IMG/VR virus record: IMGVR_UViG_3300023179_004149 | Coordinates: 62,001-126,000 of that record | Source: a virus | Direction: 5' to 3' (one strand) | DNA length: 64,000 nt | Shown: positions 5,828 to 61,462 of the stretch, in pieces | How the letters are laid out: the number at the start of each line of letters is the position of its first letter | Numbering within the stretch: position 1 is the first letter of the stretch | The notes under the pieces: generated by a model | Database searches by the model: none | What the model saw: the letters and a program-made list of their open reading frames with translations, nothing else | What the model was told of the DNA's origin: nothing | Made by a program: the position numbers and the translations under genes

Positions 5828-7555
5828 TTATTTTAATAATTTTAGTTTAAAATGGTCAATCAACATTTCAGCTTCGCGCTTCATGTATGCAACTGGAATT
5901 AATTTGAAAGTCTGAGAAAACTTATCCCAATAGAATAAACCAGCCCTATTAAACTTACGTCCAGTTTCTCTTTCGTACATTACACCATATACCGACAACT
6001 GTAATGTATAATCGTTGTACTGACAATGAGTCAAATGGTTTACTGGGAAATGTAAATATTCACCATAGGCATTCTCGTATTCAAATTTTTTATTTGTATT
6101 ATGTGTTTTAATATAATTTCTCGTCGCTAAATAAGTGTGATTTTTGCTTTCAACGGCCAAACATTTTGTTGGTACGGTATCTATTTTTTCTATTTTTTTA
6201 ACATATCTAAATTTCGATTTTTCTGTATCAGGTAAACAAATATCATTATAATTTTCCGTTTTACATAAAAAAGGATTCACACCGCCATGAGGTTTAAAAC
6301 AAACGTGAAGCGTCTTTATCTTTTTGTTATTACATGTTGTAAAAGCTTTTATTATTGTTGGTTTAAACCCTAACGAAGATATTAGTGTAGACATACCATC
6401 AGCTTGCCATTGTTGGGTTGTTATCATAACGCACCTGTCCCTTGTTTTATTATAATACCCGTCAGTATCCATAAACCCACGTAATAAATCTAACCTTTGT
6501 TGTTTGGATGCTCGTAAATATATATCAGGTATGTGTTTATTTTTTAATAACCCTAATTTATTTAACTTACCTCGTAAACCATAAATTGTTCTCGATTCGG
6601 CTAAACCACTTGAGCTGCCTGAAACATCTGAGCCTGTATCATACCCCCTATTTTTAAGTTCCTCCCAAATCATTTCGTTCATATTTGTCAAAACCCCACA
6701 GTCTTTTGAACCATCACCCAACCAAACCCCAAATACATAAGGGTCTATCGGTAACTCCAAATTTTTTTCCGTAATGACTTCGGTTGTTTCTATGCGTATG
6801 GGTTGTTTTTGTTTAAACATACCATATAAATCCTCTGTTGTTTTTATTACATTAGAATATTTATATTTTGATAATCTATTAGATATTTCCCATTTATGTT
6901 CGTGATCACAAATTATAGTATCATTTGTATCAAATGTTATTTTATAACATGGGTTATGGTGTATTTCCGATACATGTAATACTTTTGTTAAATTTCCTTC
7001 ACCATCAAAAATAACATCACCCACATTAATATCCGACATTAATTTAAAACCATCTTCTGTCGGTATTTCGGTATCAAGAGATAAACCTTTAAAATCCCAC
7101 ACATTAAATTTATCATAATCTAAGTCTTCGATAATATCGGATGTACCAGCAATACCAAGCTTATCATTAAACTCGTAAGACATGATATATTCTGGTTTTA
7201 AACGATCCGAATTAATCAAACTTAGTTTCTCGTCTGAACACACCTTTTTAAAAGCATTTAAAACCGTTTTTTCGTACTCATCCCTGGGAGAGTATATTCT
7301 ATGCGGCGCAAGTAAAAAGCGCTCTAAAATAGCGTGTAAATTAGTTCCGTATTCATTTGCAAGACGGTTGATTTCTCGCCATTCAGCAATCACCTCTTCT
7401 TTTGTTATTCCTTTTCTGTCCGCCACCCTCTGAGCGTGATAGTCTTCATCAAACTTTTCTTTGTACTTACCCAACATCGTGGTTACCGAAGTGTATTGCA
7501 TGTTTGGAAACTTGTCATTCACATAGGTGTGGGTTTCATGAATTAATTTTATCAT
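5828..7555 (-). CDS. PD-(D/E)XK exonuclease with class 3 intein
   Basis: 575 residues, of which 245 are extein (1-156 and 487-575). The extein is a RecB/Cas4-type PD-(D/E)XK nuclease: an N-terminal helix with GTNLHAILERF, then GIAGTSDIIED (Asp140) and NVWDFK (Asp154, Lys156), interrupted directly after the catalytic Lys156 and resuming with TNKKFEY. A later QLSVYGVMYER fits the QxxxY motif of exonuclease-type members. Splicing gives WDFKTNKK. It probably degrades or trims DNA ends in replication or recombination. It lies between the primase and the cupin/gp47 genes with gaps of 2-3 bases, so co-expression is likely. Unspliced protein should be inactive. Confidence 0.88.
   Translation of the reverse strand: MIKLIHETHTYVNDKFPNMQYTSVTTMLGKYKEKFDEDYHAQRVADRKGITKEEVIAEWREINRLANEYGTNLHAILERFLLAPHRIYSPRDEYEKTVLNAFKKVCSDEKLSLINSDRLKPEYIMSYEFNDKLGIAGTSDIIEDLDYDKFNVWDFKGLSLDTEIPTEDGFKLMSDINVGDVIFDGEGNLTKVLHVSEIHHNPCYKITFDTNDTIICDHEHKWEISNRLSKYKYSNVIKTTEDLYGMFKQKQPIRIETTEVITEKNLELPIDPYVFGVWLGDGSKDCGVLTNMNEMIWEELKNRGYDTGSDVSGSSSGLAESRTIYGLRGKLNKLGLLKNKHIPDIYLRASKQQRLDLLRGFMDTDGYYNKTRDRCVMITTQQWQADGMSTLISSLGFKPTIIKAFTTCNNKKIKTLHVCFKPHGGVNPFLCKTENYNDICLPDTEKSKFRYVKKIEKIDTVPTKCLAVESKNHTYLATRNYIKTHNTNKKFEYENAYGEYLHFPVNHLTHCQYNDYTLQLSVYGVMYERETGRKFNRAGLFYWDKFSQTFKLIPVAYMKREAEMLIDHFKLKLLK
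6098..7087 (-). mobile_element. Class 3 intein with LAGLIDADG endonuclease (330 aa)
   Basis: Residues 157-486 of the nuclease gene. Block A reads GLSLDTEIPT: position 1 is Gly, not Cys or Ser. The class 3 W-C-T triad is present: Trp222 in block B (DHEHKWEIS), Cys465 in block F (TKCLAVES) and Thr484 in block G (KTHN). The end is His485-Asn486, followed by Thr487. Two LAGLIDADG motifs are seen (VFGVWLGDG near 274-282, LLRGFMDTDG 357-366). In class 3 inteins the block F Cys starts splicing, so the missing N-terminal nucleophile does not imply inactivity. Confidence 0.88.
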
Positions 7556-44222: not shown

Positions 44223-47200
44223 TTATAAAGTACTTAAAACCCCACTGAATGAATTAAATAACGCATCACCTGGCCCAGGGTGTTTAGTTAATTTGGTTTT
44301 CTGACCAATTACAGTGAAACCCTTCGATTCATACAGTTTAATAAATGTATCAATTTGTCTTTCCCAGCTACTATCATTTACGGTGGTGGTACTTTTTAAA
44401 TTACCCCAACCATAGCTACCATTTAAAATGTAATATTTAGCATTAGGGTACTTTGTTTTTATTAAGGTTATTAATTGATCGGCATTCGTGTTGTTTACAG
44501 ACCATCCGTCATTTGAACCTATAGATAATACCACTTTAGAAACTTTAGCATCAACATTTGCTTTATTTAAAGCTGATATTAAATTAACTGTTGTCCAACC
44601 AGTCACACTTAATGTTGTTGGGTTGGTTATTTTAGATATATTTGAATATTGTTGACTAACAGCTAAAGAAATAGAATCCCCGATTGTAATCGATGTACTA
44701 CCAATGTTTGTTGTATCACTATCCCAATACAACGGGTCGCTAACGTCATTAAATTTGTTAGCATACAATTCAGCCGTTGTACTCCTTCTTAATACATTAG
44801 GATCCGTTAATTTGGATGTGTATATTGACCTATCTTTAACAGTGATTACGAAAGATTTATCATTTGTATCACCACAACCTTTACATATTTCAACTTTTTT
44901 AGCAAATAATAATGCGGCATCATACGGATTTAAATTAGTACTATTATCAACCCAATCACTAAAATTGAAAGTTTTATTATATAAAAAATCTAATTGATCC
45001 TGTACGGTTCGACCAATAATATCCAGTATTTTTTCTGGATTGAAGGTATTCCCATAAGATATACCATTCCACTGTATTAAACCAACGGATGGATATCCAT
45101 CCGTATCTTCATCGTTGGTTTTCGTTGGATTGAATAAGCCGATGGTTTCAACATACATATTACCCATTATACCAGCAACTTGAGATTTTGTTAAACCTTT
45201 AGACTTCAAATAGTTTTTAATTATTATCTGATTATTAATATTTTTACCGTTAATAGCATTGTATCTAAATTTCAATTCTCTATCTGTTGCACTTTTAGGT
45301 AATCCACTCGTATTAACTATGTCGAAATAAAGCGCATTATTGGTGGTTGTTGTACTAAAAAATGATAAAACATTAGTGTCCCCACTAAATGTACCAACAT
45401 ATGTAACTTTAGCCAGATCTAAAATAGTACTCACTAAATCACTGATCTTTATTTTTTTATCCTTACTAAAATCTTTACTACCATTAAAGACATCAAATAA
45501 TTTTTTACTACGTGGTAGACTAAGTGGTGTTTCATTATATTTTGAAAATCCACTTTGTATAAACATATTGCACAACGATAAATCTATTGAATTAACATTG
45601 ATTTTGCTATCTATACGATAGTTTACCTCAGTATCATTTGTTATCTCAGTATCTGAAACAATACCATATACCGTATCTTTTAAATTATCAATTTTTATTT
45701 CGGATTGATAAACCGTTGCTGAAGCAATTTTATCTAATAAAACAGATAAACCAGATTGTCTGGAATAACCACCTTCGTTACTTTTATAAAGTTGTGACAA
45801 AGAAGCATGAGTTTTATTAAATTTATCTTTATACCTATCATCTTTGACTCTTTCCATATTCATAATAGCAATACTAACCATACCATCCAATATCTTACGA
45901 TGATCATTTGTTGTTGAATTTATTACATATTTTGATGTATTATATAAGGTGGCGATTATTGCTTTATTTGTTATATTATTACCAGTCGATTTACTTAAAG
46001 AGTAAATATAGGTACCCAATATATCCTTACCGTCAAAATCTTGGTAGAACGTATCGTTAATAATTTTTTGTAAGTATTCACCATATGGTTTATTAGAACT
46101 TTCAATTTTAGTGATTGGCCCGTAAGTATCTTTAATACCAATGGTTTGTATCCTGTTAGCCACTGGGACAGCTTGTTCAATTTGCCCGATTACTTTTTTT
46201 AACTGTTCAAGTATTACACGTCTTCTATCATCTTTAGTCGCTATTGGTTGTCTAACACCTTTGAAGGTCGTATACATTGAATTGGTTGATATTTTATGTG
46301 AAACATTGGTGATCCAATAGGTGCCATAAAACAGCGGTACGTTTTTCAAATAAAAGTAACTCAAGGGTTGAATTGTTGCATTACCTAATCCAGAAACCTG
46401 GCAAGTATACATATACTTTTCATATATAGGGAATAAATTACTTGTTTTAACGGTATTTGTTCCAGCGGATTTATTACTGTTATTAATATAATCAGTCCAG
46501 TTTAATATAGCTGATTCGGTAAATGAAAACTGAGAACTATCCAGTTCAAGTGATGTAAACATTTGTTGGTTTTGTTTGCCAAAATCAACAATAAATGATG
46601 TTACATTAGAATCTTTTATTTCATTTGGTGCATTTTCAGCGTTAAGAGTGTAGTCTTTATTTTTATCATCAAACGATATATCCAAACAAAATGAGTTCAA
46701 ATAATATTTGGTTGCTTTTTGTTCGGGTTTTAATCTATTTAATTCAGATGGTGTATTACCAACCTGAAAAATATAACCTGGTAAACCAGATAACCCACCA
46801 TAATAAGTTCCTTTATTTTCACCAACTATATCCTCACCAAATAATTCAGTATCTGTATGTGTTCCGAACATTTGATCAACAACATTACTCATACCAAATG
46901 ATGTTGATTGTGCTATAACACTACTCATGTTTAAATAATTAGGTATCCTCAAGAAATTAAAACCACTACCAGCTGCAACGGTACTATATATCTTATCCAC
47001 AGCTGTTGATATAATGTTTGAGAATGGGTTATTACTCGATGCGTTGTTTAAATCCTTATTAACAATAATATACTCATTTGAAAAGTCAGTATATAAGGTA
47101 TTATATAATGCTGGTAAATCCGCTAATACTTCAGTTCCAATATCGTTATTACCCCTATCCAAAATTTGGAATATTTGGAATAAATCGTAACCCTTTTTAT

Positions 47201-50200
47201 TTTTTGATGGTTCACAATCTTTATCACCAAAACTAATGAGAGGGAATAAATTATAATCCTTTATGTTGCTGATTTGTAATTGATCTAATTTACTAATTCC
47301 TTGAATATCGGTAACAATTGAGTCTGTGGTATACTCAAGTTTATCATATATTTGCTTGAAGTTGTAATAAGTTGTCTTTTTAAAATCATCAAAATTATCA
47401 TCACGTAATTTATTCTTATATGAATTAGGATTTGATGGGTTAGATGCGTCTGCGTAATATGTGTTGATTGTGTTAATAAACGAAGACATACCCCCAAGAG
47501 TATTGTTAACTGTTTTTTTCACAAAATCAATAAAATATTTCTGCTTATCCGATTCTGAAATAGTATTAAGGAAATCAATATTTTTAATTGGTTGATTTAA
47601 TCTACTGTCATTCTGAGGGTCATTCATTGGTTTAAGATAAACCTGAGATAATTTTAAATATTCCTGATAGGGTTGAATTGCGTTACCAGGTAATAAAGCC
47701 TCATTAATATATAATGTTGGTGTTTTTTCGGTTTTAAATTCATTATTCGATTTATTACTAATTTGTACTAATGTAATATATACGTATGATCTAATTATTT
47801 TTAATAATATTTTATATGTTTTTTCGTCAAATTTAATATTTAATGATCTATAAAATTGAGTTACAATATTATAGTATAAGTTGTCGTAAAACTTGGAATC
47901 ATAAGGATTTTTATATAAAGCTGACCCATAGAATCTTGGGTCAGCACCCTCATCAACTACCTTGATGTATGAATTATTTTGTATATATTTTTTATTAAGA
48001 TTAATTAAATTATTCTTCTCATCTTGTGTTGGTTCTGTGAAGCTTTCTATGTATTGATCAGAAAAAAGTATTTTTCTCATCATATATTTAACTATATCAA
48101 ATTCACTAAGAGTATCATCTAAGTCCTTATATGATTTAATTAAAGTATCATAATCCGATTTGTCAGATAACATTATATCTGGATTAAACGGGAATAAATG
48201 AGGGGTGAATTGGAGGTTGTTGTGTTCTGTAGATCCGAGCGGTGAAAAATTAGCTATTGTTTTTTTCATGCCACAAAACCCTTTTATTGCGGCTTCCGTT
48301 TTATTTAATTGCGCAAGCGTCAAAGCACCATTCATAAATTTATTAATACCGTATTTAGCCACAAAGTCATAAAAATACATTGAGTTACCTATTAGTAATA
48401 AGTTTATTTCATCGGCTGTTAATGTATAACCATCATCATCATAATCTTCGATGTCATTATACGCAATAAGTGATGATGCCATCATTAACGTGCGAAGATT
48501 AAATGTACCACTTTGATCCCTGGTTGCAAATTTTAAAAATTCATCCTTAAACGCTTCCAATTTTTCAATATCCAATGAATCTAATAATTGATTAAACGCA
48601 AACTGATCACCAAATAATGGGCCGTCACCAGTAAAATATTTTTTATATGTATCATAATCATCTATATTAAAATAGTTTTTTGTAAAATAATCACCATTAT
48701 TCAACATCTCATCCATACCATTATCAGAATCATAATAAAACCCATCTGTTTCATTATAATCGGGTTTTAATGAATAATATGATAACGTGGGATCAAACCA
48801 AAAGAATCTGGTTGTACCTTTCAATATTGTTTCATTATTAAATGCGTATTTAGTTAAAAAATTAGAATCGTTAAACGAAGGACTAACTAAATATTTTGGC
48901 TTTGCTGGATTTACATTACTGTCGTCAATATAAGATTTATTTTCCTTAAATACTCTGTTAATGACATCAATAAATGATTTTTTTGATGTTTCAACGCTAT
49001 CAAATTTACCATCTTTAAATTTAAATAACATCAAATCATTACTATTACCAGACTGTTGGTAAAAATTATTACTGAACGCATTTAAGTAGTATCGATTAGC
49101 TTTTTTATTTACTATACCATCAAAACCATAAAATTTTTCAGCATCAGTTTGATTCTTTTGTATTAAATCAACATGATCTGTAATAAAAGTACTGTCGTAG
49201 CTATTACTTAAAACGTTTTTATTATCATACGTAAAGCGAATATCATCCAAATTCTGATCATTCGATTTGAATAATTCAAAAGGGTCGATAAACCCACCAG
49301 ACGATGGGTATAAACCATATACCGCCATTGAGTCGATAGTTTCGTGATTTTGGATCTTATTTAATCGTTCAAGTGACCATAACTCTTTAAAATAATTGGT
49401 TATGTTTGTAGCTATTTGATTAACAGCATCCTCAATACCGATAGCCGTGTTATCCTTAAGTTTGATGGATGTGTCAAACTGAAGTTTGGCGTACTCTTTG
49501 TTAAAATAATAATTCTCCATCAAATACAATAGATATGGGTACCTTTGATTTCCAAATACCCTTAAACTACATATTTTAGAAAAATATGATAATAGTTCTT
49601 CATCGGTGATTGCATCACTAAGATATAACGCCTTAATCTTGGCCAGGGTTATAAATGATTGGATCATCGATTTACGTCGATCCGTATTAATTATATTTAT
49701 GGCGGTAGTAAATTGTGAATATAAAAAATCTGGTGTATATTCTAAGTTATTTTTAGAATACCCACCAACCCAACTATTTCTATAGAAAGCCGTAAACTCC
49801 ATTATGTTAGAGTCAAATGTTTTTATTGGTTTACTTATACCGCAATGGCCACCAATTAATGAATGGGGTTTATTGTTATTATATTGGCTTTTTTCTACCT
49901 TACCATTCAAATAATCACCATAAATAAATTTATTATATTCATTTAAAAAATTATTCTGTATACCATACCCAACGGCTGGCATAATATTAGTTGTGTTTAA
50001 TGTGATACTGCTATTAATCTCCAGATCATTGTCATACCCAATCAAATAATCAAAAGAATATTGTTGTTCTTTAATTAATGATCTGTCAACAATACGTGTT
50101 GATGGATGATAAATGGTACCAAATAAACTATCTGTTATCGTTGTTAATAATACCGATTTTCGTGTAATAACCTTACCTTTATACATTTTAGGTGTTCTTA

Positions 50201-50705
50201 ACAACTCATTAGAATAATACAGATCTTTCGTAATTTCTGGTATATCGGTTGGTATTAGAATTTTATTAGTTCTATCAAACACAGTGGATTGATCCACTAC
50301 ATTTGTGGTATTATTATCAAAGTTATAAATACTAAACTTTTGTTCATTAAAATAGTGTAAACCACCCAGGTATAAAATAAAAGGATATGGTAGCTCGATT
50401 AGTTCTTGGTTTTTATTAAAAAGCTGATGTAGATTTTGTGTTGAAACTGAATATTCACCTTCTTTTAATAATTGTTGCATATATGTTTTAACAAACATAA
50501 AAGCAACTTCTGGCGAGTTCGTCCTACCGCCATCCATTGATATTACCAAAGTATCAGCAAATGACGTTGTATTTAGAATAGTCGGCCCTTTAAATAAATC
50601 ATTCTCAACCGAAATATTTGTATTATCGGGTTTATTTACTATGGCACTATTATAATCAATAGTATTATTTTTATTATAATATTTAACTAAATTATCTAAA
50701 TTCAT
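44223..50705 (-). CDS. Giant (2160 aa) tail hub protein with lysozyme and SGNH esterase domains
   Basis: 2160 residues. Residues about 1833-1985 match a phage tail lysozyme: LKSKGLTKSQVAGIMGNMYV followed by ET (Glu1853 as probable catalytic acid), then VGLIQW. Residues about 2005-2160 form an SGNH/GDSL hydrolase: ITIGDSIS (Asp2010-Ser2011), LSIGSNDG (Gly2063, Asn2065) and a late HPGPGD (His2142). The first 1800 residues are Asn/Tyr/Asp-rich; part of them (near residue 1450, VPLFYGTYWITNVSHKIS) looks like hub beta-structure. By order it corresponds to T4 gp5/gp27 functions: local cell-wall digestion during injection. The esterase probably deacylates surface or envelope polymers; its substrate is unknown. 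Confidence 0.85.
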   Translation of the reverse strand: MNLDNLVKYYNKNNTIDYNSAIVNKPDNTNISVENDLFKGPTILNTTSFADTLVISMDGGRTNSPEVAFMFVKTYMQQLLKEGEYSVSTQNLHQLFNKNQELIELPYPFILYLGGLHYFNEQKFSIYNFDNNTTNVVDQSTVFDRTNKILIPTDIPEITKDLYYSNELLRTPKMYKGKVITRKSVLLTTITDSLFGTIYHPSTRIVDRSLIKEQQYSFDYLIGYDNDLEINSSITLNTTNIMPAVGYGIQNNFLNEYNKFIYGDYLNGKVEKSQYNNNKPHSLIGGHCGISKPIKTFDSNIMEFTAFYRNSWVGGYSKNNLEYTPDFLYSQFTTAINIINTDRRKSMIQSFITLAKIKALYLSDAITDEELLSYFSKICSLRVFGNQRYPYLLYLMENYYFNKEYAKLQFDTSIKLKDNTAIGIEDAVNQIATNITNYFKELWSLERLNKIQNHETIDSMAVYGLYPSSGGFIDPFELFKSNDQNLDDIRFTYDNKNVLSNSYDSTFITDHVDLIQKNQTDAEKFYGFDGIVNKKANRYYLNAFSNNFYQQSGNSNDLMLFKFKDGKFDSVETSKKSFIDVINRVFKENKSYIDDSNVNPAKPKYLVSPSFNDSNFLTKYAFNNETILKGTTRFFWFDPTLSYYSLKPDYNETDGFYYDSDNGMDEMLNNGDYFTKNYFNIDDYDTYKKYFTGDGPLFGDQFAFNQLLDSLDIEKLEAFKDEFLKFATRDQSGTFNLRTLMMASSLIAYNDIEDYDDDGYTLTADEINLLLIGNSMYFYDFVAKYGINKFMNGALTLAQLNKTEAAIKGFCGMKKTIANFSPLGSTEHNNLQFTPHLFPFNPDIMLSDKSDYDTLIKSYKDLDDTLSEFDIVKYMMRKILFSDQYIESFTEPTQDEKNNLINLNKKYIQNNSYIKVVDEGADPRFYGSALYKNPYDSKFYDNLYYNIVTQFYRSLNIKFDEKTYKILLKIIRSYVYITLVQISNKSNNEFKTEKTPTLYINEALLPGNAIQPYQEYLKLSQVYLKPMNDPQNDSRLNQPIKNIDFLNTISESDKQKYFIDFVKKTVNNTLGGMSSFINTINTYYADASNPSNPNSYKNKLRDDNFDDFKKTTYYNFKQIYDKLEYTTDSIVTDIQGISKLDQLQISNIKDYNLFPLISFGDKDCEPSKNKKGYDLFQIFQILDRGNNDIGTEVLADLPALYNTLYTDFSNEYIIVNKDLNNASSNNPFSNIISTAVDKIYSTVAAGSGFNFLRIPNYLNMSSVIAQSTSFGMSNVVDQMFGTHTDTELFGEDIVGENKGTYYGGLSGLPGYIFQVGNTPSELNRLKPEQKATKYYLNSFCLDISFDDKNKDYTLNAENAPNEIKDSNVTSFIVDFGKQNQQMFTSLELDSSQFSFTESAILNWTDYINNSNKSAGTNTVKTSNLFPIYEKYMYTCQVSGLGNATIQPLSYFYLKNVPLFYGTYWITNVSHKISTNSMYTTFKGVRQPIATKDDRRRVILEQLKKVIGQIEQAVPVANRIQTIGIKDTYGPITKIESSNKPYGEYLQKIINDTFYQDFDGKDILGTYIYSLSKSTGNNITNKAIIATLYNTSKYVINSTTNDHRKILDGMVSIAIMNMERVKDDRYKDKFNKTHASLSQLYKSNEGGYSRQSGLSVLLDKIASATVYQSEIKIDNLKDTVYGIVSDTEITNDTEVNYRIDSKINVNSIDLSLCNMFIQSGFSKYNETPLSLPRSKKLFDVFNGSKDFSKDKKIKISDLVSTILDLAKVTYVGTFSGDTNVLSFFSTTTTNNALYFDIVNTSGLPKSATDRELKFRYNAINGKNINNQIIIKNYLKSKGLTKSQVAGIMGNMYVETIGLFNPTKTNDEDTDGYPSVGLIQWNGISYGNTFNPEKILDIIGRTVQDQLDFLYNKTFNFSDWVDNSTNLNPYDAALLFAKKVEICKGCGDTNDKSFVITVKDRSIYTSKLTDPNVLRRSTTAELYANKFNDVSDPLYWDSDTTNIGSTSITIGDSISLAVSQQYSNISKITNPTTLSVTGWTTVNLISALNKANVDAKVSKVVLSIGSNDGWSVNNTNADQLITLIKTKYPNAKYYILNGSYGWGNLKSTTTVNDSSWERQIDTFIKLYESKGFTVIGQKTKLTKHPGPGDALFNSFSGVLSTL

Positions 50706-50707
50706 AA

Positions 50708-53377
50708 TTATATCTCTTTATATATGTCGAATACATTATTTATTGATTCAGCTTTATTCAATATAATATCGTCAGCGGTACTACTAAACGTCAGTGTATT
50801 AACTGTGGTATCATCAAATGAAACTTTAGCTGAGGTAAAGTTAGTATCAATTGCTATTGTATTTAATTTTTTATTAAGATCTTTAAGGAACCCCTGTATT
50901 AAATTAGCATCTTCACTTGAATTAAGTGAATTGTTAAATGGTTCTGGGTATTTATCGCTATAATAAATTTTGTTATATTTAAGATCTGGTATAATAGATG
51001 TTTTATTTTGTTTACCGTTTTCTAAAGCAATAGAATAGAGTTTAGGGGATGTGGTATTATATAACTTAGCGAATTTATTATTTGTTATTATAGCATTTTT
51101 TTTGTTAATAATTTCATCAAACTCTTTTTCACTAAATTTACTTTTATAGAGCTTTATCTCGTTTATAGTTTCTTTCTTATAAGTATCGGCATCATTTTTT
51201 TTAACATTGAAGAATGAATAACCAAATGATGTGAGGTTGTTTTGGAATTCATTTTTATCTGTGTATTTTTTTATAATTGAAGCCAGTAAATATTTTTGAT
51301 TAATACTGGTAATGGTGTTAATAACGTTATCGTCAATCAAACCAATTTCATAGTTAGCCATTGAGTTGGCATAATCACTTAAATTATTTGATCTGTAAAT
51401 AAAACCAGAATACATCAAATGCAATGTATATTTTTTAAATAACTCAAGCATAATATCATCCGCTTTTTTCTTATCCTCATATACACTCAAATCATCATAG
51501 TTAGAGTTACCTAAACAAAAAACCGATATAATACCAGTTTTTTTATTGCCGAAGAGATTATTCTGATCAGCACCGCCCATCTCTTTATGTAATCTACCTA
51601 TCGCATTATAAAATTCCTCCACAAATTGTACTTCAAACCAATCATCCGTTGCCGTATTTTTACCAGGGTATACCTGGACATTCATTTCAACATCCTCACC
51701 ATTTAAATTTCTTTTTTTGCTTTCATAATAATTGGGGAATGCTGAATATATTTTTGATTGATTTTTGTTTATAACAACAGTCGTATTTTTATCCTGAATT
51801 AATTGTCTTAAACCATCTTTCTCAATTTGGTTTATCGCCATCTCAGACACAATACGCATAAGTAACAGAAACGTTTGTATATTATTACTTATTATCCTAA
51901 CCACATTACTTAAATTTGGTTCGTATTTTAATGAATCTTTAATATTCTTTATCGTAATATCATAAGATTTATCCTCAATCTCTTTCAAAATATCATCCAA
52001 TAATAAATCAACCAGGGTTATGATATTGTTAAAATTATCTAAAAATAAACTATCACTATTTTTAAATTTAAAAATATCCTCAGTTAAAATATTATTTATA
52101 TCAGGTTTGGGTTGGTATGTTTTTACAGACCCATAAAATTTATTTATATTATTGGTGTAATTATTATACTGGGATAACGAGGTTATCTTTTTTAATTCAT
52201 TGTTAATATCGGATATACAATTAGCCGTTACCTGATCAAAAATACCGTTATCGGGTTTATCAATTATCTTATAAAGATATAACGAATTATTGCTATCTCT
52301 TTCTTTTGTATAAACTGTAGTATCGTTAAAATTAGCCCTGATCAATTCAACATTAGATTCAATAAAGTATTTTATCCTCAGTAAATTATTATTATCTTCT
52401 TCATTGTTGAGGTTGTCTGAATTATTAATTATTGAATCATATTGTATGCTTTGTAACGCCCTGGCTAAGTTAGTTAGCTTTGGAGCGCCCAATATTTCCA
52501 ATTTACTATATTTGTTAGAGTTTGAACCAAATTGATTAGCTAACTCTTTATTTTGGTTTTCGTATAATTTTTTAAGTATCTTATTACCTAAATAATCACC
52601 GTCTGAGGTTGCAAACATATATGGTGCCGCATAAGCATATATTATCAATATACTATTTAACAAAGAAAACACATCAGATTTGAAGTTACAGGTAATTGTA
52701 TAGTCACCAGTATTTGGATCAAATCGGTAATTTGATTGTATTAATACTAATTGTGTCTCAACCGTTTTACCATAATAACCCTTATATTTTAGAACAAATT
52801 TAGGATATGGGTAGGTGAAAAATATATTATATGGGTTATTTTCATCATTACCTCTTTCAAACAATGTTCTACCTTGAATATCAATAAATGTTATAGTCAT
52901 TGTTGGCTGAAAATCAGCATTTATGGCTATATCAATTGATGAAATACCGAATGTCTCTGGATCAACTATAAATGATTCACTTAATGGATTGTTAGTTATA
53001 TCGTTAGTAAAAAATTCACTCCACTGTGTCGTTAATTTATTTTTATACTGCGCTTTAGTGGTATTAGTTGCATTTTTTTGCAACGGGTTTAACATATTAA
53101 TTGTGATGAAATCATTATTAGGTAATATCGTTGTCTTCTCATTATCTTTAATAACACTATATTCTGGTTTTTTAAAAACCTTTAATTCAGCATATATTGT
53201 CAAGTCTTCCTGTTTGATATAACGGTCACTAACCACACCGTTTTCATCCATAACTTTATTCGGATCAATAACGATAGCACCCCTATCCGATTTTCTTTTA
53301 TCATCGGTGTTTATAACACGCTTCCATAATATATTTTCTATTAAACCCTTTTGCGGTTTTATAAATGTATTAGCCAT
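50708..53377 (-). CDS. Large hub/baseplate protein
   Basis: 889 residues, Asn/Ile/Lys-rich. Residues 145-240 contain a beta-rich block: FGISSIDIAINADFQPTMTI, then FIDIQGRTLFERG, YPYPKFVLKYKGYYGK and VETQLVLIQSNYRF. This looks like a tail-tube-type or gp27-like hub barrel; that is a judgement from pattern, not a match. The rest is helical with many Asn runs. It overlaps the gp53-like gene by 8 bases and is 2 bases before the 2160-aa hub, with which it probably assembles. Confidence 0.75.
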   Translation of the reverse strand: MANTFIKPQKGLIENILWKRVINTDDKRKSDRGAIVIDPNKVMDENGVVSDRYIKQEDLTIYAELKVFKKPEYSVIKDNEKTTILPNNDFITINMLNPLQKNATNTTKAQYKNKLTTQWSEFFTNDITNNPLSESFIVDPETFGISSIDIAINADFQPTMTITFIDIQGRTLFERGNDENNPYNIFFTYPYPKFVLKYKGYYGKTVETQLVLIQSNYRFDPNTGDYTITCNFKSDVFSLLNSILIIYAYAAPYMFATSDGDYLGNKILKKLYENQNKELANQFGSNSNKYSKLEILGAPKLTNLARALQSIQYDSIINNSDNLNNEEDNNNLLRIKYFIESNVELIRANFNDTTVYTKERDSNNSLYLYKIIDKPDNGIFDQVTANCISDINNELKKITSLSQYNNYTNNINKFYGSVKTYQPKPDINNILTEDIFKFKNSDSLFLDNFNNIITLVDLLLDDILKEIEDKSYDITIKNIKDSLKYEPNLSNVVRIISNNIQTFLLLMRIVSEMAINQIEKDGLRQLIQDKNTTVVINKNQSKIYSAFPNYYESKKRNLNGEDVEMNVQVYPGKNTATDDWFEVQFVEEFYNAIGRLHKEMGGADQNNLFGNKKTGIISVFCLGNSNYDDLSVYEDKKKADDIMLELFKKYTLHLMYSGFIYRSNNLSDYANSMANYEIGLIDDNVINTITSINQKYLLASIIKKYTDKNEFQNNLTSFGYSFFNVKKNDADTYKKETINEIKLYKSKFSEKEFDEIINKKNAIITNNKFAKLYNTTSPKLYSIALENGKQNKTSIIPDLKYNKIYYSDKYPEPFNNSLNSSEDANLIQGFLKDLNKKLNTIAIDTNFTSAKVSFDDTTVNTLTFSSTADDIILNKAESINNVFDIYKEI

Positions 53378-53687
53378 AATAATTTAAACGCTGCCTTAAT
53401 TTTCTTTCATATTCCCTCAAGGTATCCTCAAGCGGTAATGGTATTCTAACGGTTTGCCCATCGAGAATGTTCCATTCCTGTCCACCGAATTCTGGATTAA
53501 CCATCAGTATTAACCAACCGTAATAAGGTGAATCATAATAATTTTGACTCACCTTATCCAATCTGGTTTTATTTTTATCATATATAATAAAATCATCCGT
53601 TTCTTTCGGTGTTAATGCAACATAAGGCGGAGATATGATTTTATCATCCGTATTTAGTTTTCTGTAACGATTATAATACCCTCCCAT
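53370..53687 (-). CDS. 53: gp53/LysM-like baseplate protein
   Basis: 105 residues. Residues 42-85 match the LysM-like part of gp53 and tail protein X: RLDKVSQNYYDSPYYGWLIL, then NPEFGGQEWNILDGQTVRIP. The remainder is a short basic C-terminus (REYERKLRQRLNYYG). T4 gp53 (196 residues) joins wedges to the hub; this one lacks the extra length, so it is also close to the smaller tail protein X/LysM class. It starts at the stop of the 2591-aa gene, with a shared T at 53687. Confidence 0.8.
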   Translation of the reverse strand: MGGYYNRYRKLNTDDKIISPPYVALTPKETDDFIIYDKNKTRLDKVSQNYYDSPYYGWLILMVNPEFGGQEWNILDGQTVRIPLPLEDTLREYERKLRQRLNYYG

Positions 53688-56600
53688 TATTGACCCATTT
53701 CATATTTAGTTAACTCAGTTTGGGTGGAACCAGTATCTGGTAGTGGCCCAATTATAGTTTGTTTATTTTCGTTAGTGTTGATAATATTAAACCTATTTTT
53801 GTTATTAATAAATAGTTTATAGTTATCTTTAGCTGTATTTATTATATTTTTAGTATCACGCATTGATAATTTATAATCTTCTTCAGAACCTTTTATCAAA
53901 GTGGGTACTATTAAATCAGTAGATATATCTTTCCAAGTCGCACCTGTAGTAAATACGGTGTTAACTTTTGTCTTAACCACATCGTAATTTGAATTATACT
54001 TATCCGCAATACCACCTAACTTAATAACAGCTGAATCACTATAATTTTTAATGATTGTAAATGTTGAATCCAATATGGTTGATATTTTATCATACCTATC
54101 ATTTAATTGTTTAGCTGATGTTTTAGGATCCGTACTAATACCAATCACTGGTTTATTTTCTGGTTTTTTAATATCTTCCATGATTTTAGCTTTATCAGCA
54201 TTACTGATAAAACTAAAGAAATCTAAAAATAAAACATCCAATAATCCAGTCATATGTATATTTTGTCCTACTAACGCTGTATCTGTTAAATTTGATTTAC
54301 TGAAAAGTTCTTCAGTAATTGGAATATCATACATAAGAAAATTATTTAAAGTACTAACCTCACTATCAATTATCGACCCTGATGGTACTTGATATGTATA
54401 ATACCCAATATATGTTGTTTTATAGTCTAATCTATCAGAGGTGTAAAATAATTTAGTACCATCTGATGTTAAACCAGTTACTTGGTTAATAAAATTATTA
54501 CCCGCAGTGATTAAAATATCCAAATTAAATCCATCATGTATGAAATTATCATTCATCATTAAATCTAAAGTTCTATTTGAAAATTCAAATAATTCATAAC
54601 TTAGTTTTTCGAATGTATAGGTCATACCATAAAAATTATTATAGGTACCCCCGTTATCTGTTAGCGTCTTAACTGTTGTTTGACCAGCTGCGGCTGTATA
54701 ATCTTGGTTTGTGTTTATTGTTACACCAGAAGTACCAGTGGCGCCAGAATATAACGTGAAGTTTGCTGTTGTTCCGTAATTATTAATTACCGTATAATCA
54801 TTTAAACCAACTGATTGCACTAGTGTGTTGTTATAAGTATAACCAGTTTTAGCTATTTGTTGTATTGATGGGTTATTCGTAATTTGTTTAAATAAATAAT
54901 TACCGTTACACATTTTTAAAAAGTTAGCTTTATCGATATTACTGATTCCACTTTGTACCGCCGTATCTGTAAAAGTAGCACAAACAGCGAAATCTATAAT
55001 AGATATAATACCGTTATAAATTGTCTTATATTCATTATATGGTTCATAACCAAAAATAGATTTTCCATTTTTTGACAATTTTTTACCATTAGGTATTACT
55101 TCATAATAAACTGATTGATTCTTTTCATTTAATCTAACATCATATCCCTCAGCTACAACAGATAAACCTGTCAATAACGTAGCAAATTTACCTGTGTTTT
55201 CAGTTACGTCATTTAATGTTGTATTAAGGGTTTCAACCAAATCATTATAATAATTATCCAATATAGCTATGAGGTAATCCGTAAATATTTTTCTATGTGG
55301 TGTTTCAAAATAAGTTAAATAATTTTTATATACATTTAAAGTTTCTGGTGATTTAAACCAAAAATGAGATAATTCCAATTTTAATTTAGCCTTCATCTCC
55401 TCTTTTAATAGATAAAATAATGAGTTAATGTTTTGGCTATAAAAACTGTAATCTTTAATATACAACCCAGCCGCTTCACTATTTTTACCGTTACCACCAG
55501 TTAAGTAACCTGGGTTAAATCTAGAATCATCATTGTAAAAACCATTAACAATATGGTTACCGTTACCTATCTTATACATATATTCTTGTGGATATAAGTG
55601 TATTCTAATTGGGTTCGGGTTAAAATCATATCCACTTATACGTGACATTAAACCATCAATATTACCATATTCTACATAATTTCTATTTTTAGCTTCAATA
55701 TCAAAAAAATTATATAAATAGAATTTACTATCGTTCGCACCAGGGGTTAATACATTAGCTGAATCATATATATTATTAGATTGTGTTGGTAAATTATTAA
55801 AATCTGTAATACTTTTTGTTGTATCACCAATGATATATTTATTATAGTTTTTATTTAACAACAATAATCTTAAAACCGATGTTTTATCTAATAATTTATT
55901 ATACTTGAAGTTATCAACAATCAATTTAGAATAAGTCGTATAGAGATCTTTAAATAAACCGTAATATTGAATCTCATAGGTTTCAAAATATCTTTTATTT
56001 AAATATGTGTCAGATGTAGGATCATCTTTAGTTATTGTTTCTTCGGTATTACCCAAATACTCAAATAAGAAACCTTGTTCACCATAGTTTCTCCATTCTA
56101 TCTGTATCCAATAAGTTGTATCAGTTGGTGTTTTATTGCTTAATGTATTACCATATATCGCATACGTTGCATTATTATCAGCCTTTCTCTGGTAAAAATT
56201 ATTATCATAGTAAACCACATCATATACTTGATACACGGTACCACTATTATATGTTGTTGAATTATTAATAAAATCAGTGTATATACCACCTGGTGGTGTT
56301 GGTTGATTAACTAATGTTACAACACCGATGGTACCACCTGGTAATGTTTCATTAAATTTATCCTGAACATATTTTTCACCTGTAGCAATTATTGGAATGA
56401 GGTCTAGTTGATTACCATCAAAGAAACTCCTTTCCATGTTGATGAGATTTCTTTCTGACTCATTTGTATTTGCATACGTTCTACCATCGTATATATCCGC
56501 ATTAGCATAATAATTGAATGTTAAAGCATTCTGTAATTCCTCAACGTATGTTCTTAATCCAGAACCACCTATGTATTTTATTGACATACTTACGTTAGCA

Positions 56601-59600
56601 ATCATTGGTTGAACACCAATACCTTCTGGGTTTAAATCCCAAACCAAAGGATCATAACTAATATTCAAATTAGTTATAAGCATTTTGGTATTATACATAT
56701 CACCCAATCTTAATACACATATAGGTGGTTTACCGAATGCAGTATTTGATGCGTCACAAGTATCTGTTTGGCTACGTTTAATGGTATTACCTGGTCTCAT
56801 ACACTGTTGTAGGAAAGTCAATCTACTATTTAAACCTTCTGGTGTCATCGAGTGCATACCTGGAATGAAGTATTTTAACTTCTCTTTCATACTTTTATAA
56901 ACAGTGGGTGCATCTTCTTTTAATACTTCAAAATAATCACATTCTGTAATTAGTTTATCTAATATTCTTTGAGCTATATCTCTTTTAGTGATATTAGTAT
57001 TATCTAACGTCTTCAATGAGGCTACCGTAATAGTTTCTGGTTTTTTAACTGCTTCTGGTTTATTTGGTATTACTGGTTTTATTTGTGGTGTAACAGTAAT
57101 ATCAACTCTTCTCGCATATGAACTTTCTATCGATAAAGCACCACATACTGTATCAGCATATGTATAAGCTGTTTTACCCGCTGGGTTAAACGTACCAATT
57201 TGTGTTTTATCAACAGTTTCAGTAACACCTATTTTAGTTGGATCTGTAATATAAGTATTTTTTATATCACTTGTTTCAAAACAATAACAATCTTTTTTTG
57301 TTAGTTTATCTTCTGATGGTGCATTACGAACCATGAAGTAAACGTCACCAGAAGTTGTCTTCAGGTTAGTCGCTGTTGGGTTAATTTTACTTATCGCTTC
57401 AGTAAATGATATTACTGTTGATGCATTAATATTAAATGTGATTTTATCTCTGGTGTTATTAGGTTGTGCTGGGTTAGCGGGTGCTTCTCTCCATACCACT
57501 AAAGAAGTTGTTACATCCTCTAAAATAGAGTCAATATTACTTTTGGTTATTTCATCACCCGCTTGATCCTTATTAAATATCTTATTGGTTGCCGATCCCA
57601 TTATATTATCGGTTAATAACCATTTAATAACCGATTTAGCTCTTCTAATACCTAAATTTTTATTATATTCAGATGGTAATTTAGAACCTAGAGCACTAGA
57701 ATATGCTGTTAAGTTAATAGATAAATCAAAATTATTATATTTTGAATCTTTTAACTCATTAATTACATCTGTTTGTTGTTTATTAAAACCATAATATGGT
57801 TCGGTATGATCTGTGGCCATAAAATAGTTATCCCCACTATCAATACCTAACGTATAAAAATATCTTAACCACTCTGAATTAACAGCATATTTATCATTGG
57901 TTTTTTTAACCGCCTGTGCGTTGGTTGAGATGTCAGATAAATTTAATTTCTTATATTGATCAAAATACACACCGAATGATTCAATAGTACCACCGTAAAC
58001 ACCTGTTTTAGTGCTATATACTGTTGGGTCTAACGGAACATCATTTTCGAAAAATAACCCCTTTGTGAAACTTGGTGGTGGTGTTAAATCATTTGTATTA
58101 TTGAAAGTGGGTTCATCCACAGATTTATTCACTAAAGCGTTAGTAAATTGTGGTGTTAATAAATCATTTGGTTTTGATTTATTAACACCATTTAAGACCG
58201 CTTTGAAATATTCGATATCTGATTGTGAGAATTGATTCCATATTCTTGCAAGTTCAAAAATATCAAACTCCTGGCAACCAGCCCAGAAAGCGTTTAATAT
58301 CTCATCAACTTCACCATCAGTCAATTTAGCCAGTTCTTTTTTAACTAAAAGATTCAAAATACTTGGATGGTCAACAACTATCTTAAATGATATCGTACCA
58401 CTCCTTTCAGTATTATTGTAAGTGTATATTGGTTCTGGTCTACCCAAGAACTGGTGAGTTGTCCAATTTGAAGAGGTGTCATCAGTGAATTTAATATCAT
58501 ATGGCGGGAACCACATAATTCTACCACCATTCGGGCCAATTTCACATTTTTTTAATTCTTTTTGTTGTTGTGAATCTCTCCAAGCCAGGTTTTCTATCGA
58601 GAACATGTATTTCTTAGCTGATCCACCATTTACATTAAGTTCACTTGGAAATATATTTAAATTACCAAATCTATCCAATACTGAATTTCTTTCACGTCTA
58701 ATTAATTCTTTATATCTTATTGCACCCGTTATATTTGAATATGACCTACCTTTAGTCCAAACACGACACAACTCGGCTTGTTCATACATTTTCTTATCAT
58801 CACGCTTACCTGTTTCATCTAAACCAGGAACTATGTATCTGTTACCTATCGTATCACCTTTTGAATTTTTCTTAGGTATTACTTTTGGTTTTATTGTTGC
58901 GTTAGCTCTTGATGTAAAACTATACCCGTCGTAAAACTTAGTAAGTGTTTGGTCAATTGGTGAGTTGTATTGATTATTAATCGATTTATCCAATAATCTT
59001 TGTGTTTTATCTAAAATAGAACATTCGATAAAATTAATATTATTTGATAGACTATCCTTGTTTCTAATACGATTTGATGGTGTTAATGTGCTGCCAGTTT
59101 CACCTTTTAACACAAAAACTTTTTCGGTTGCTGCATTCTTTGACCAAACAAAATTAGTTTCAATAGAACCATATTCGGATACTTGATTATAGCCTGGTTC
59201 TATTTTATTTATCTGTTCTATTGTATTACCATACACACTACTCGTTATTAACGCCTCAGTAACTTTATCATTTGTATTAACAATATCACCATCAGAATCT
59301 TGCATAAGATAAAACGGATCAATCTTATCCTTTTTACTACCAATATAATAATCACCAACAGGCCTTTTGCCAGAACCCAAACCTAAGAATGCCGTTACAC
59401 CTCTTATTATTTGAGCAACCGACTCACCCGCCTGGAATAAACCACTTTTGTAATCATTCGTATAATTTGGTGAATATTTGTTAATCGATATATTTGCAAA
59501 TAAAGCCGCCTTTTGACCGTCACCAGTATGATTTAAAAAATACATGTCACGTTCATTTCTGGCTGTTCTACCACTAAGATCACTAATAAACTTACCAAAA

Positions 59601-61462
59601 GCCGTTTTAGGCATTTTTTGGTTTGTGTTATAAAATTCATTATTAAAACATTGTGGTATATAATCTTTTGTTTTATAGTTAATATATGAGAATGGTAAAT
59701 TAACACCAGCTAAATGTTCAGCAAACTGTACAGCTTTACCAACTGGATTACTCGATACGCTGATAGTGTTATCCTTTTCAAACCAAGATTTTGGGTTTGA
59801 CAATAAATCAAACAAAGTATTTGGGTTTGTTAAGGATTCATCCAATTTAGTTTTTAATACTGTTTCTTGAGCTATGTTCTGTAACAATCTCGCTTCGAGA
59901 TTAAACTTCAACTGTAAAGCAGCAATGTTCATCAATAATGTTTCATCCTTCAATGGTTGTGTAACAGAACCATTTAATAAACTCTCCATACGATCAACGT
60001 TAGTAAGTATAGATACAGGTGAAACCGCAGCACTTATATTCAAGAATTGACTCGGTTCATATGTGTTTGGTTGGTCAAACGAATAAACACCAGATTTATA
60101 GGCTTGAATGTACGGTTGTATATTTTGATTATTTAATATACTATTAACGACTGGTTCATAAGTGTTTATTTCAACTGGTAAATATCTATTTTGTTGTAAT
60201 ATTAAATTTAATGCAACTTCAGGTGGTTGACCGCTTGAAATTATCAAATCTAAACTATTTGGTATATTATAATCATTTATAGTTGTTACCTTACCAATAG
60301 TTGTTATTAAACTATTATATATATAACTATATTCACCAGTATATAACGGATCATTAAATGGTTTATTTTTAACCATCAATTTCTTAAGTTCCTTTGTCGC
60401 CGTATTATCTAGATATGCACCATCATCAACGACTTTATAATCGCTTAATGTTGTTTGAATACCTTTATCATTTGAAAATGATTTATACCCATCTGGTGCT
60501 ATGTTTGGATTATTTCTACTGAAATCAAAATTTCTCGGTTTATCCGATGTGTTATTGATCGTATCTGGGTTATTTACTTTGTAATCGTTAATAACCGAAT
60601 CAGTACCCAAATCACTTCTGTATGAGCGATATCCCTCTGGTGTTATTTTTTTATCATTTCTACCAAGATCTTTTTTTCTTGGGTCTACCGATGCTTTATC
60701 GATATCACCAGGATCTTTTATATTGTAATCGCTAATCGTTATTTCTTGACCCAAGTCATTTCTATACGCACCATAACCAAATGGAGTTATGTTAGGAAGA
60801 TTTTTAGTTAAATCCCTATTTCTCGGATCCTCAGATTCAGATGTTATATTACCAGGGTTCGTAACACTATAATCACTTATAGATGTATCGTTACCCAGAT
60901 CAGCTCTGTATGAATTATAACCATCTGGTGTTATCTCTGATAGGTTTTTAGTTAAATCTTTATTTCTTAGGTCTATTGATTCTGAAGTTATATTACCAGG
61001 GTTTTTTACATTATAATCACTAATAGATACTTCAGTACCTAAATCAGCTCTATATGAATCATAACCGTCTGGTGTTATATCATTAAGGTTTTTGTTTAAA
61101 TCAGATGTTCTTGATAATGTTGATGTTGTATCAATATTACCTGGTTTGGTAACATTGTAATCATTAATAGATACTTCAGTACCTAAATCAGCTCTATATG
61201 AATCATAACCAGTTGGTGCGAAGGTGGCATCATTTCTTCCTAAATCTAATTGTCTTGGGTTGGTTGCGTTGGATGTGACATTACCTGGGTTTTTAACCAT
61301 AGATGAGTGTATCATAGCATCTTTACCTATAGCATCGAGATATGACTGTAAATTAGATGTACCGCTCAGGTCTGTTAAACCCTGAATGATATCATTTGGT
61401 GTTCTTAAATTTAAAGCCAATACATTTTGTCTGTATTGTTCCGAAATCGTTTTTAGACCCAT
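53687..61462 (-). CDS. Giant (2591 aa) baseplate protein with 48-aa repeats and an OmpA-like segment
   Basis: 2591 residues. Residues about 55-361 hold six 48-residue tandem repeats (ITPDGYxSYRADLG, SDYNVxNPGNIT, RNKDLTKNL), the last degenerate, after a half copy. Near residue 985, IMWFPPYDIKF and RSGTISFKIVVDHP mark a conserved beta-domain. Near 1240-1290, INLTAYSS, YNKNLGIRRAKSVIKWLL and later ARRVDITV fit an OmpA-C peptidoglycan-binding domain with an insertion. Near 1555-1620, VLRLGDMYNTKMLITNLNIS and VQPMIANVSMSIKYIG look like a tube-initiator/LysM-adaptor type fold. Placed between the tape measure and gp53 genes, it probably builds the baseplate hub or tube initiator. No T4 protein is of this size. 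Confidence 0.8.
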   Translation of the reverse strand: MGLKTISEQYRQNVLALNLRTPNDIIQGLTDLSGTSNLQSYLDAIGKDAMIHSSMVKNPGNVTSNATNPRQLDLGRNDATFAPTGYDSYRADLGTEVSINDYNVTKPGNIDTTSTLSRTSDLNKNLNDITPDGYDSYRADLGTEVSISDYNVKNPGNITSESIDLRNKDLTKNLSEITPDGYNSYRADLGNDTSISDYSVTNPGNITSESEDPRNRDLTKNLPNITPFGYGAYRNDLGQEITISDYNIKDPGDIDKASVDPRKKDLGRNDKKITPEGYRSYRSDLGTDSVINDYKVNNPDTINNTSDKPRNFDFSRNNPNIAPDGYKSFSNDKGIQTTLSDYKVVDDGAYLDNTATKELKKLMVKNKPFNDPLYTGEYSYIYNSLITTIGKVTTINDYNIPNSLDLIISSGQPPEVALNLILQQNRYLPVEINTYEPVVNSILNNQNIQPYIQAYKSGVYSFDQPNTYEPSQFLNISAAVSPVSILTNVDRMESLLNGSVTQPLKDETLLMNIAALQLKFNLEARLLQNIAQETVLKTKLDESLTNPNTLFDLLSNPKSWFEKDNTISVSSNPVGKAVQFAEHLAGVNLPFSYINYKTKDYIPQCFNNEFYNTNQKMPKTAFGKFISDLSGRTARNERDMYFLNHTGDGQKAALFANISINKYSPNYTNDYKSGLFQAGESVAQIIRGVTAFLGLGSGKRPVGDYYIGSKKDKIDPFYLMQDSDGDIVNTNDKVTEALITSSVYGNTIEQINKIEPGYNQVSEYGSIETNFVWSKNAATEKVFVLKGETGSTLTPSNRIRNKDSLSNNINFIECSILDKTQRLLDKSINNQYNSPIDQTLTKFYDGYSFTSRANATIKPKVIPKKNSKGDTIGNRYIVPGLDETGKRDDKKMYEQAELCRVWTKGRSYSNITGAIRYKELIRRERNSVLDRFGNLNIFPSELNVNGGSAKKYMFSIENLAWRDSQQQKELKKCEIGPNGGRIMWFPPYDIKFTDDTSSNWTTHQFLGRPEPIYTYNNTERSGTISFKIVVDHPSILNLLVKKELAKLTDGEVDEILNAFWAGCQEFDIFELARIWNQFSQSDIEYFKAVLNGVNKSKPNDLLTPQFTNALVNKSVDEPTFNNTNDLTPPPSFTKGLFFENDVPLDPTVYSTKTGVYGGTIESFGVYFDQYKKLNLSDISTNAQAVKKTNDKYAVNSEWLRYFYTLGIDSGDNYFMATDHTEPYYGFNKQQTDVINELKDSKYNNFDLSINLTAYSSALGSKLPSEYNKNLGIRRAKSVIKWLLTDNIMGSATNKIFNKDQAGDEITKSNIDSILEDVTTSLVVWREAPANPAQPNNTRDKITFNINASTVISFTEAISKINPTATNLKTTSGDVYFMVRNAPSEDKLTKKDCYCFETSDIKNTYITDPTKIGVTETVDKTQIGTFNPAGKTAYTYADTVCGALSIESSYARRVDITVTPQIKPVIPNKPEAVKKPETITVASLKTLDNTNITKRDIAQRILDKLITECDYFEVLKEDAPTVYKSMKEKLKYFIPGMHSMTPEGLNSRLTFLQQCMRPGNTIKRSQTDTCDASNTAFGKPPICVLRLGDMYNTKMLITNLNISYDPLVWDLNPEGIGVQPMIANVSMSIKYIGGSGLRTYVEELQNALTFNYYANADIYDGRTYANTNESERNLINMERSFFDGNQLDLIPIIATGEKYVQDKFNETLPGGTIGVVTLVNQPTPPGGIYTDFINNSTTYNSGTVYQVYDVVYYDNNFYQRKADNNATYAIYGNTLSNKTPTDTTYWIQIEWRNYGEQGFLFEYLGNTEETITKDDPTSDTYLNKRYFETYEIQYYGLFKDLYTTYSKLIVDNFKYNKLLDKTSVLRLLLLNKNYNKYIIGDTTKSITDFNNLPTQSNNIYDSANVLTPGANDSKFYLYNFFDIEAKNRNYVEYGNIDGLMSRISGYDFNPNPIRIHLYPQEYMYKIGNGNHIVNGFYNDDSRFNPGYLTGGNGKNSEAAGLYIKDYSFYSQNINSLFYLLKEEMKAKLKLELSHFWFKSPETLNVYKNYLTYFETPHRKIFTDYLIAILDNYYNDLVETLNTTLNDVTENTGKFATLLTGLSVVAEGYDVRLNEKNQSVYYEVIPNGKKLSKNGKSIFGYEPYNEYKTIYNGIISIIDFAVCATFTDTAVQSGISNIDKANFLKMCNGNYLFKQITNNPSIQQIAKTGYTYNNTLVQSVGLNDYTVINNYGTTANFTLYSGATGTSGVTINTNQDYTAAAGQTTVKTLTDNGGTYNNFYGMTYTFEKLSYELFEFSNRTLDLMMNDNFIHDGFNLDILITAGNNFINQVTGLTSDGTKLFYTSDRLDYKTTYIGYYTYQVPSGSIIDSEVSTLNNFLMYDIPITEELFSKSNLTDTALVGQNIHMTGLLDVLFLDFFSFISNADKAKIMEDIKKPENKPVIGISTDPKTSAKQLNDRYDKISTILDSTFTIIKNYSDSAVIKLGGIADKYNSNYDVVKTKVNTVFTTGATWKDISTDLIVPTLIKGSEEDYKLSMRDTKNIINTAKDNYKLFINNKNRFNIINTNENKQTIIGPLPDTGSTQTELTKYEMGQ
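60380..61300 (-). repeat. Six in-frame tandem repeats of 144 bases
   Basis: The repeats lie inside the 2591-aa gene with a 144-base period (48 codons). Copies begin at codons about 81, 129, 177, 225, 273 and 321, with a half copy before codon 81. Two copies (61021-61066 and 61165-61210) share 46 identical bases; others diverge, the last strongly. A natural substrate for unequal recombination. Confidence 0.9.

Follow-up and report, generated by a model that had tools for sequence, protein, structure and literature searches.

Why should a large phage place, at the very end of one long protein that is probably part of its tail, first a lysozyme and then a putative esterase? The question is raised by the window analysed here, a stretch of 64,000 nucleotides (positions 62,001 to 126,000 of IMG/VR record IMGVR_UViG_3300023179_004149), in which a frame for a protein of 2160 residues runs without interruption on the minus strand (44223-50705); the identical frame is unbroken in the parent virus record of 320,934 bases. 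The original prediction, that two hydrolases lie at the C-terminus of this protein, was confirmed with the order PF18013 lysozyme and then SGNH domain; the span first proposed, 44223-45220, ends off a codon boundary at 45220, which is immaterial to the claim. An assembly artefact as the source of the fusion was ruled out, because the tandem recurs in the independent viral contigs L105, L112, L115 and L123. The locus contains the following features.

44223..50705, minus strand: presumed baseplate hub, C-terminal half, 2160 aa, bearing both enzymes
44226..44711, minus strand: SGNH hydrolase domain, aa 1999-2160 (PF13472, AlphaFold2, VIA, ten homologues)
44874..45233, minus strand: Phage_lysozyme2 domain PF18013, aa 1825-1944 (E 3.1e-12)
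46206..46625, minus strand: conserved hub core, aa 1361-1500 (55 distinct relatives, aligned)
50708..53377, minus strand: presumed N-terminal half of the hub, 889 aa (fused to the C-terminal half in contig L009)
53370..53687, minus strand: gp53-like baseplate wedge protein, 105 aa, adjoining the hub (phrog_7145, E 1.9e-6)
53687..61462, minus strand: conserved baseplate protein, 2591 aa, encoded upstream of the gp53-like protein (matches L009 at 30% over 705 aa)

The 2160-aa protein is probably located at the tail tip. Its gene lies next to the gp53-like gene, with gp25 and gp6 in the same block according to PHROGs matches, and its core (aa 1137-1513) can be aligned with a 2178-aa protein of L009; the 889-aa protein matches aa 22-256 of the L009 hub (34% over 250 aa), and the gp53-like protein is similar to its L009 copy (43%). 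The term hub, which was already applied in the original prediction, is supported by this synteny and by the alignable relative, and not by similarity to T4 gp27 or Mu gp44: hhalign of the hub core against these two proteins gave p 0.23 and 0.58, below significance, and a profile search of the PDB with the hub core returned no match.

The gene boundaries of the hub shift among relatives (44223-53377 in the window; L009:6164-12700; L105:805-11795; L107:4746-15871), the hub being encoded by one open reading frame in L009, by two in the window, L106 and L108, and by three in L105 and L107. Tandem repeats of 144 bases, corresponding to 48-aa units, are found at 60749-61288, near the N-terminus of the 2591-aa baseplate protein. 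Elsewhere in the window, the class II ribonucleotide reductase gene (34736-37684, minus strand) contains an intein with a LAGLIDADG endonuclease at about aa 315-677 (PF14890, PF14528), and the L009 ribonucleotide reductase, which is 76% identical on both flanks, has no intein. A terminase-like frame (5828-7555, minus strand) matches an exonuclease family over its N-terminal 150 aa and terminase/helicase-like profiles over the remainder.

The first of the two enzymes is a lysozyme, as had been proposed: the PF18013 domain scores 47.3 bits, above the curated Pfam cut-off of 28.2, and its nearest solved relative is phi29 gp13 (3csr, E 1.9e-4). The GNMYVET stretch of the window protein aligns with GNMQSES of phi29 gp13 (3csr/3csq), including the Glu that we take to be the catalytic residue of the phi29 enzyme.

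Identification of the second enzyme is less direct. When the last 194 aa were searched alone, PF13472 (GDSL) matched with E 1.2e-4 and 23.1 bits, below the curated cut-off of 32.9; such a match by itself would be suggestive only, and homologues and a fold were therefore needed. An AlphaFold2 model built from seven sequences has pLDDT 89 and pTM 0.86 (a single-sequence model of the last 366 aa was poor, with pLDDT 41, and was discarded), and in this model the Ser begins the first helix following strand one and the His occupies the loop leading into the final helix, which is the layout of SGNH enzymes. Foldseek against the PDB placed the Phocaeicola sialate O-acetylesterase 7pzh first (E 5.8e-4, prob 1.00). 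VIA-align gave Z 12.1 to the GDSL esterase 7e16 (rmsd 3.2, 151 aligned), Z 11.0 to TesA/lysophospholipase L1 and to Streptomyces phospholipase A1, and Z 10.8 to the C-terminal domain of the peptidoglycan O-acetyltransferase OatA, and carbohydrate O-acetylesterases are among the VIA matches; likeness of a modelled fold to acetylesterases and OatA would not be proof of the substrate. The best match among viral models was a 668-aa 'Lysozyme' from an uncultured Caudovirales phage (E 5.9e-7), so that a similar pairing may already sit undescribed in databases. The residues that define the domain, with their conservation in ten copies, are as follows.

44673..44681, minus strand: block I Gly-Asp-Ser with the predicted nucleophile Ser2011, invariant in 10/10
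44598..44600, minus strand: block II Gly2036, predicted oxyanion hole, 9/10 (Ser in L120)
44511..44513, minus strand: block III Asn2065, predicted oxyanion hole, 10/10
44406..44423, minus strand: NGxYGW motif, aa 2095-2100, signature of the subfamily, 10/10
44280..44282, minus strand: block V His2142, His in 10/10

The SGNH identity is settled by these ten homologues, in which Ser, Asn and His are invariant, together with the confident model of an SGNH/GDSL fold, and by fold and residues the domain is placed in the SGNH/GDSL superfamily, outside PF13472 proper. Two Trp besides that of NGxYGW and an Asp five residues past the His are also invariant, and the block III Asp is missing in four of the copies. 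Three residues before the His the ten copies have L C V C V C V T V L, and because the block V Asp is therefore absent in all ten, the sequences make a Ser2011-His2142 dyad likely, rather than a Ser-His-Asp triad. An Asp at this position is not universal in the SGNH superfamily, so its absence is not disqualifying; the SGNH esterase CtCE2 has an active Ser-His dyad without the Asp (PMC2661963), as has the Streptomyces rimosus lipase an active dyad (PMC10779480), and further active members without the block V Asp are known (PMC9487903). The call of an SGNH esterase thus holds for the fold and for Ser2011 and His2142, which had been correctly singled out, and does not extend to a full triad.

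Other searches with this domain gave little: a sequence search of the PDB found nothing credible, no PHROG family was found, and a match to PatB/DUF459, at E 0.04-0.07, was not significant. A lectin match of the SGNH profile (E 6.5e-4) was rejected as one to a repeat protein with no single stretch past the threshold, and an omptin NCBIfam match at the C-terminus of the window protein was far under the cut-off.

The homologues were collected by aligning the gp53-like 105-aa protein with its L009 counterpart and scanning viral contigs, which gave 80 loci; for the closest relatives whole records were searched and the hub ends taken, and three SGNH alignments then added loci. Since most of the ten copies were found via the SGNH domain itself, the independent sample is small; L115 is a near-duplicate of L105, and the L112 domain of the L106 domain. 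Among the five gp53-found close relatives with a full hub, three have a cutter and SGNH, and the other two, the near-identical L108 and L109, have DUF2272 and an unnamed C-terminal domain and are without SGNH. A single-sequence SGNH scan of the viral contigs found none, relatives having surfaced via the gp53-like neighbour and then the SGNH alignments; tblastn of the domain against 50,697 phage records gave no match at E 1, and two pattern scans of GTDB genomes, which can miss distant bacterial relatives, gave no SGNH relatives. PF13472 over the whole parent record revealed no second copy, and the same search initially overlooked the window copy too. The ten copies occur in the following arrangements.

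PF18013, SGNH: window and L123
DUF2272 (PF10030), PF18013, SGNH: L105, L112 and L115
DUF2272, endolysin-like domain, SGNH: L106 and L107 (phrog_90, E 5e-14 and 7e-14)
Endolysin-like domain, SGNH: L116
Different hub-like protein with internal PF18013, a cysteine-peptidase-like stretch (by eye only), SGNH: L120
Duplicated spike-like gene, one copy ending in endolysin-like and CHAP domains, the other in SGNH: L122

SGNH is the last domain in every copy, and a glycan cutter accompanies it in 10/10, on the same polypeptide except in L122, where the cutter is on an adjacent paralogue. With our own HMMs, every SGNH domain found had a glycan cutter in its own protein or in an adjacent paralogous one, and 72 complete hub frame entries, duplicates included, had neither. 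Apart from SGNH, BLASTP finds nothing in the L120 and L122 scaffolds that resembles the window hub, and across the three unrelated scaffolds the identity of the domain between lineages is 31-66%. In L122 the pairing is split over two genes, tandem spike-like paralogues (L122:5746-10474) that are 78-82% identical over their first 486-546 aa; a phosphatidylserine decarboxylase NCBIfam match there was far under the cut-off.

The enzyme end of the hub is exchanged quickly, and yet a cutter with an SGNH domain of one subfamily recurs. L106 and L112 have UvsX-like proteins that are 100% identical over 229 aa and SGNH domains about 97% identical, and their cutters differ; the codons of the two domains differ synonymously at 18 places and non-synonymously at 6, a pattern suggestive of purifying selection on the domain. 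L116 and L123 also differ in their cutters, with 98% identity in the UvsX-like protein, 91% in the hub core and 35% in SGNH, and between L106 and L108 the hub core is 88% identical and the enzyme end has been replaced. Retention of SGNH beside swapped cutters suggests that the phage removes acyl groups from the envelope sugars of its host to allow the cutter to act.

The reading to which we give a probability of about 0.5 is that the domain is a tail-tip O-acylesterase of a T4-like jumbo myophage which unmasks the wall glycan for the adjoining lysozyme. The tail tip would enter the envelope carrying the lysozyme and then, at the end of the protein, the compact SGNH O-acylesterase, in which the Ser2011-His2142 dyad and the oxyanion hole of Gly2036 and Asn2065 would perform catalysis. 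O-acyl groups, most likely O-acetyl, would be taken off the wall glycan beside the lysozyme, and the lysozyme, otherwise blocked by O-acetylation, would then pierce the wall so that the tail tube can pass. The substrate is most likely peptidoglycan. When MurNAc carries O-acetyl groups, lysozymes are blocked and the action of lytic transglycosylases is precluded (PMC6174289), and the wall is O-acetylated to 69% in Bacteroides fragilis and 27% in B. thetaiotaomicron (PMC1199599). The original idea of deacylating and then cutting is the best supported one, because every SGNH copy accompanies a glycan cutter; the original interpretation as a whole is partly supported. L108 and L109, which have the hub and DUF2272 without SGNH, count against the unmasking reading, as does the absence of the block V Asp, whereby the predicted activity would depend on the dyad.

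The host may belong to the Bacteroidota. Shine-Dalgarno sites precede 2 of 35 window genes, with 0.95 expected from shuffles, which is no clear enrichment, and Bacteroidota genes are likewise without such sites (PMC6847099), a trait that is not unique to this phylum. An A is found at position -3 in 23 of the 35 genes. Among cultured phages with scaffolds related to those of L120 and L122, some infect Flavobacterium and others cyanobacteria.

The alternative that survives best, although it is unlikely, is that the target of SGNH is a surface polysaccharide (capsule, O-antigen or exopolysaccharide), deacetylated before the tail reaches the wall, and that its fusion beside the lysozyme is incidental. 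Virion O-antigen deacetylases are known in Salmonella phage c341 and the Vi phages (PMC5380687), the nearest folds include the Phocaeicola sialate O-acetylesterase, and the rapid exchange of the enzyme tail between close relatives could equally reflect variable surface polysaccharides. Against this, all ten copies lie by wall cutters and none is on a fibre or spike without a cutter nearby, identity of 31-66% on three unrelated scaffolds fits a common substrate, and a position at the hub end would probably act late, after surface binding.

It is distinctly improbable that SGNH is a glycan-binding module or a catalytically decayed domain, with no active esterase. Such a role would agree with the lack of the block V Asp in 10/10 copies, the loss of the block III Asp in 4/10 and of the block II Gly in L120, and the active centre of the CtCE2 esterase also binds cellulose non-catalytically (PMC2661963); however, Ser, Asn and His kept in 10/10 at 31-66% identity are hard to explain without catalysis, and dyads are active in CtCE2 and the S. 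rimosus lipase. Still less probable is that SGNH acts as a phospholipase or lipase and weakens the outer or inner membrane where the phage enters, because, although TesA/lysophospholipase L1 and Streptomyces phospholipase A1 match at similar Z and the latter also has a dyad (PMC10779480), at about 160 aa the domain is small, the invariant NGxYGW and two other Trp would better suit a sugar-binding cleft, and the association is with wall cutters only.

A wider proposal can be made tentatively, at a little under even odds: the phage-only SGNH subfamily with NGxYGW, HPxxxD and a Ser-His dyad would be a mobile tail-tip de-O-acetylase that travels between unrelated scaffolds, combined now with one wall cutter and now with another, as an answer to wall O-acetylation. 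This modification is otherwise discussed mainly as a means of resistance to animal lysozyme and of autolysin control. Were SGNH to strip O-acetyl groups from the wall, the virion would carry an enzyme directed against a modification that shields walls from muramidases, and a role of wall O-acetylation in protecting bacteria from phage entry would become testable. The swaps between close relatives are natural chimeras for such tests, and a compact 160-aa domain with a named residue set is suited to expression. We found no earlier description of this subfamily, of a lysozyme paired directly with it, of its presence on unrelated scaffolds or of the exchange of the cutters beside it.

Each part of this arrangement has a counterpart in known systems. 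T4 gp27-gp5 bears a wall lysozyme on the hub or spike of a contractile tail, as the window protein is proposed to do, and the gp25, gp6 and gp53-like neighbours match by PHROGs; unlike the window protein, it has no SGNH domain, and the hub cores have no significant sequence link. In phi29 gp13 (Morphogenesis protein 1), a tail-tip lysozyme of the same family is likewise fused to a second envelope enzyme, a peptidase and not an SGNH domain, and the protein is not a hub. The SGNH fold and the Ser-His dyad are shared with CtCE2, a CE2 acetylesterase, and with Streptomyces dyad SGNH lipases, whereas CE2 enzymes possess an extra domain at the N-terminus and have Trp in block V, and no close sequence relation was found. 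Ape O-acetylesterases and the OatA and PatB O-acetyltransferases act on the C6 O-acetyl of MurNAc, and OatA matches in fold (Z 10.8), but they are bacterial enzymes with no significant sequence match. The view that a GDSL esterase on a hub is unusual was overstated, because the gp27-like hubs of the staphylococcal phages phi11 (gp44) and 80alpha (gp59, Tal) have an SGNH/GDSL domain of putative activity at the C-terminus (PMC4876445, PMC7048315), with a predicted wall-cutting function as in the window protein (PMC4876445, PMC7048315, PMC5380687). These are siphophages of Gram-positive hosts, with no lysozyme between the hub and an SGNH domain of about 240 aa, whereas the window belongs to a jumbo myophage whose 160-aa SGNH domain forms a separate subfamily and is accompanied by exchangeable cutters.
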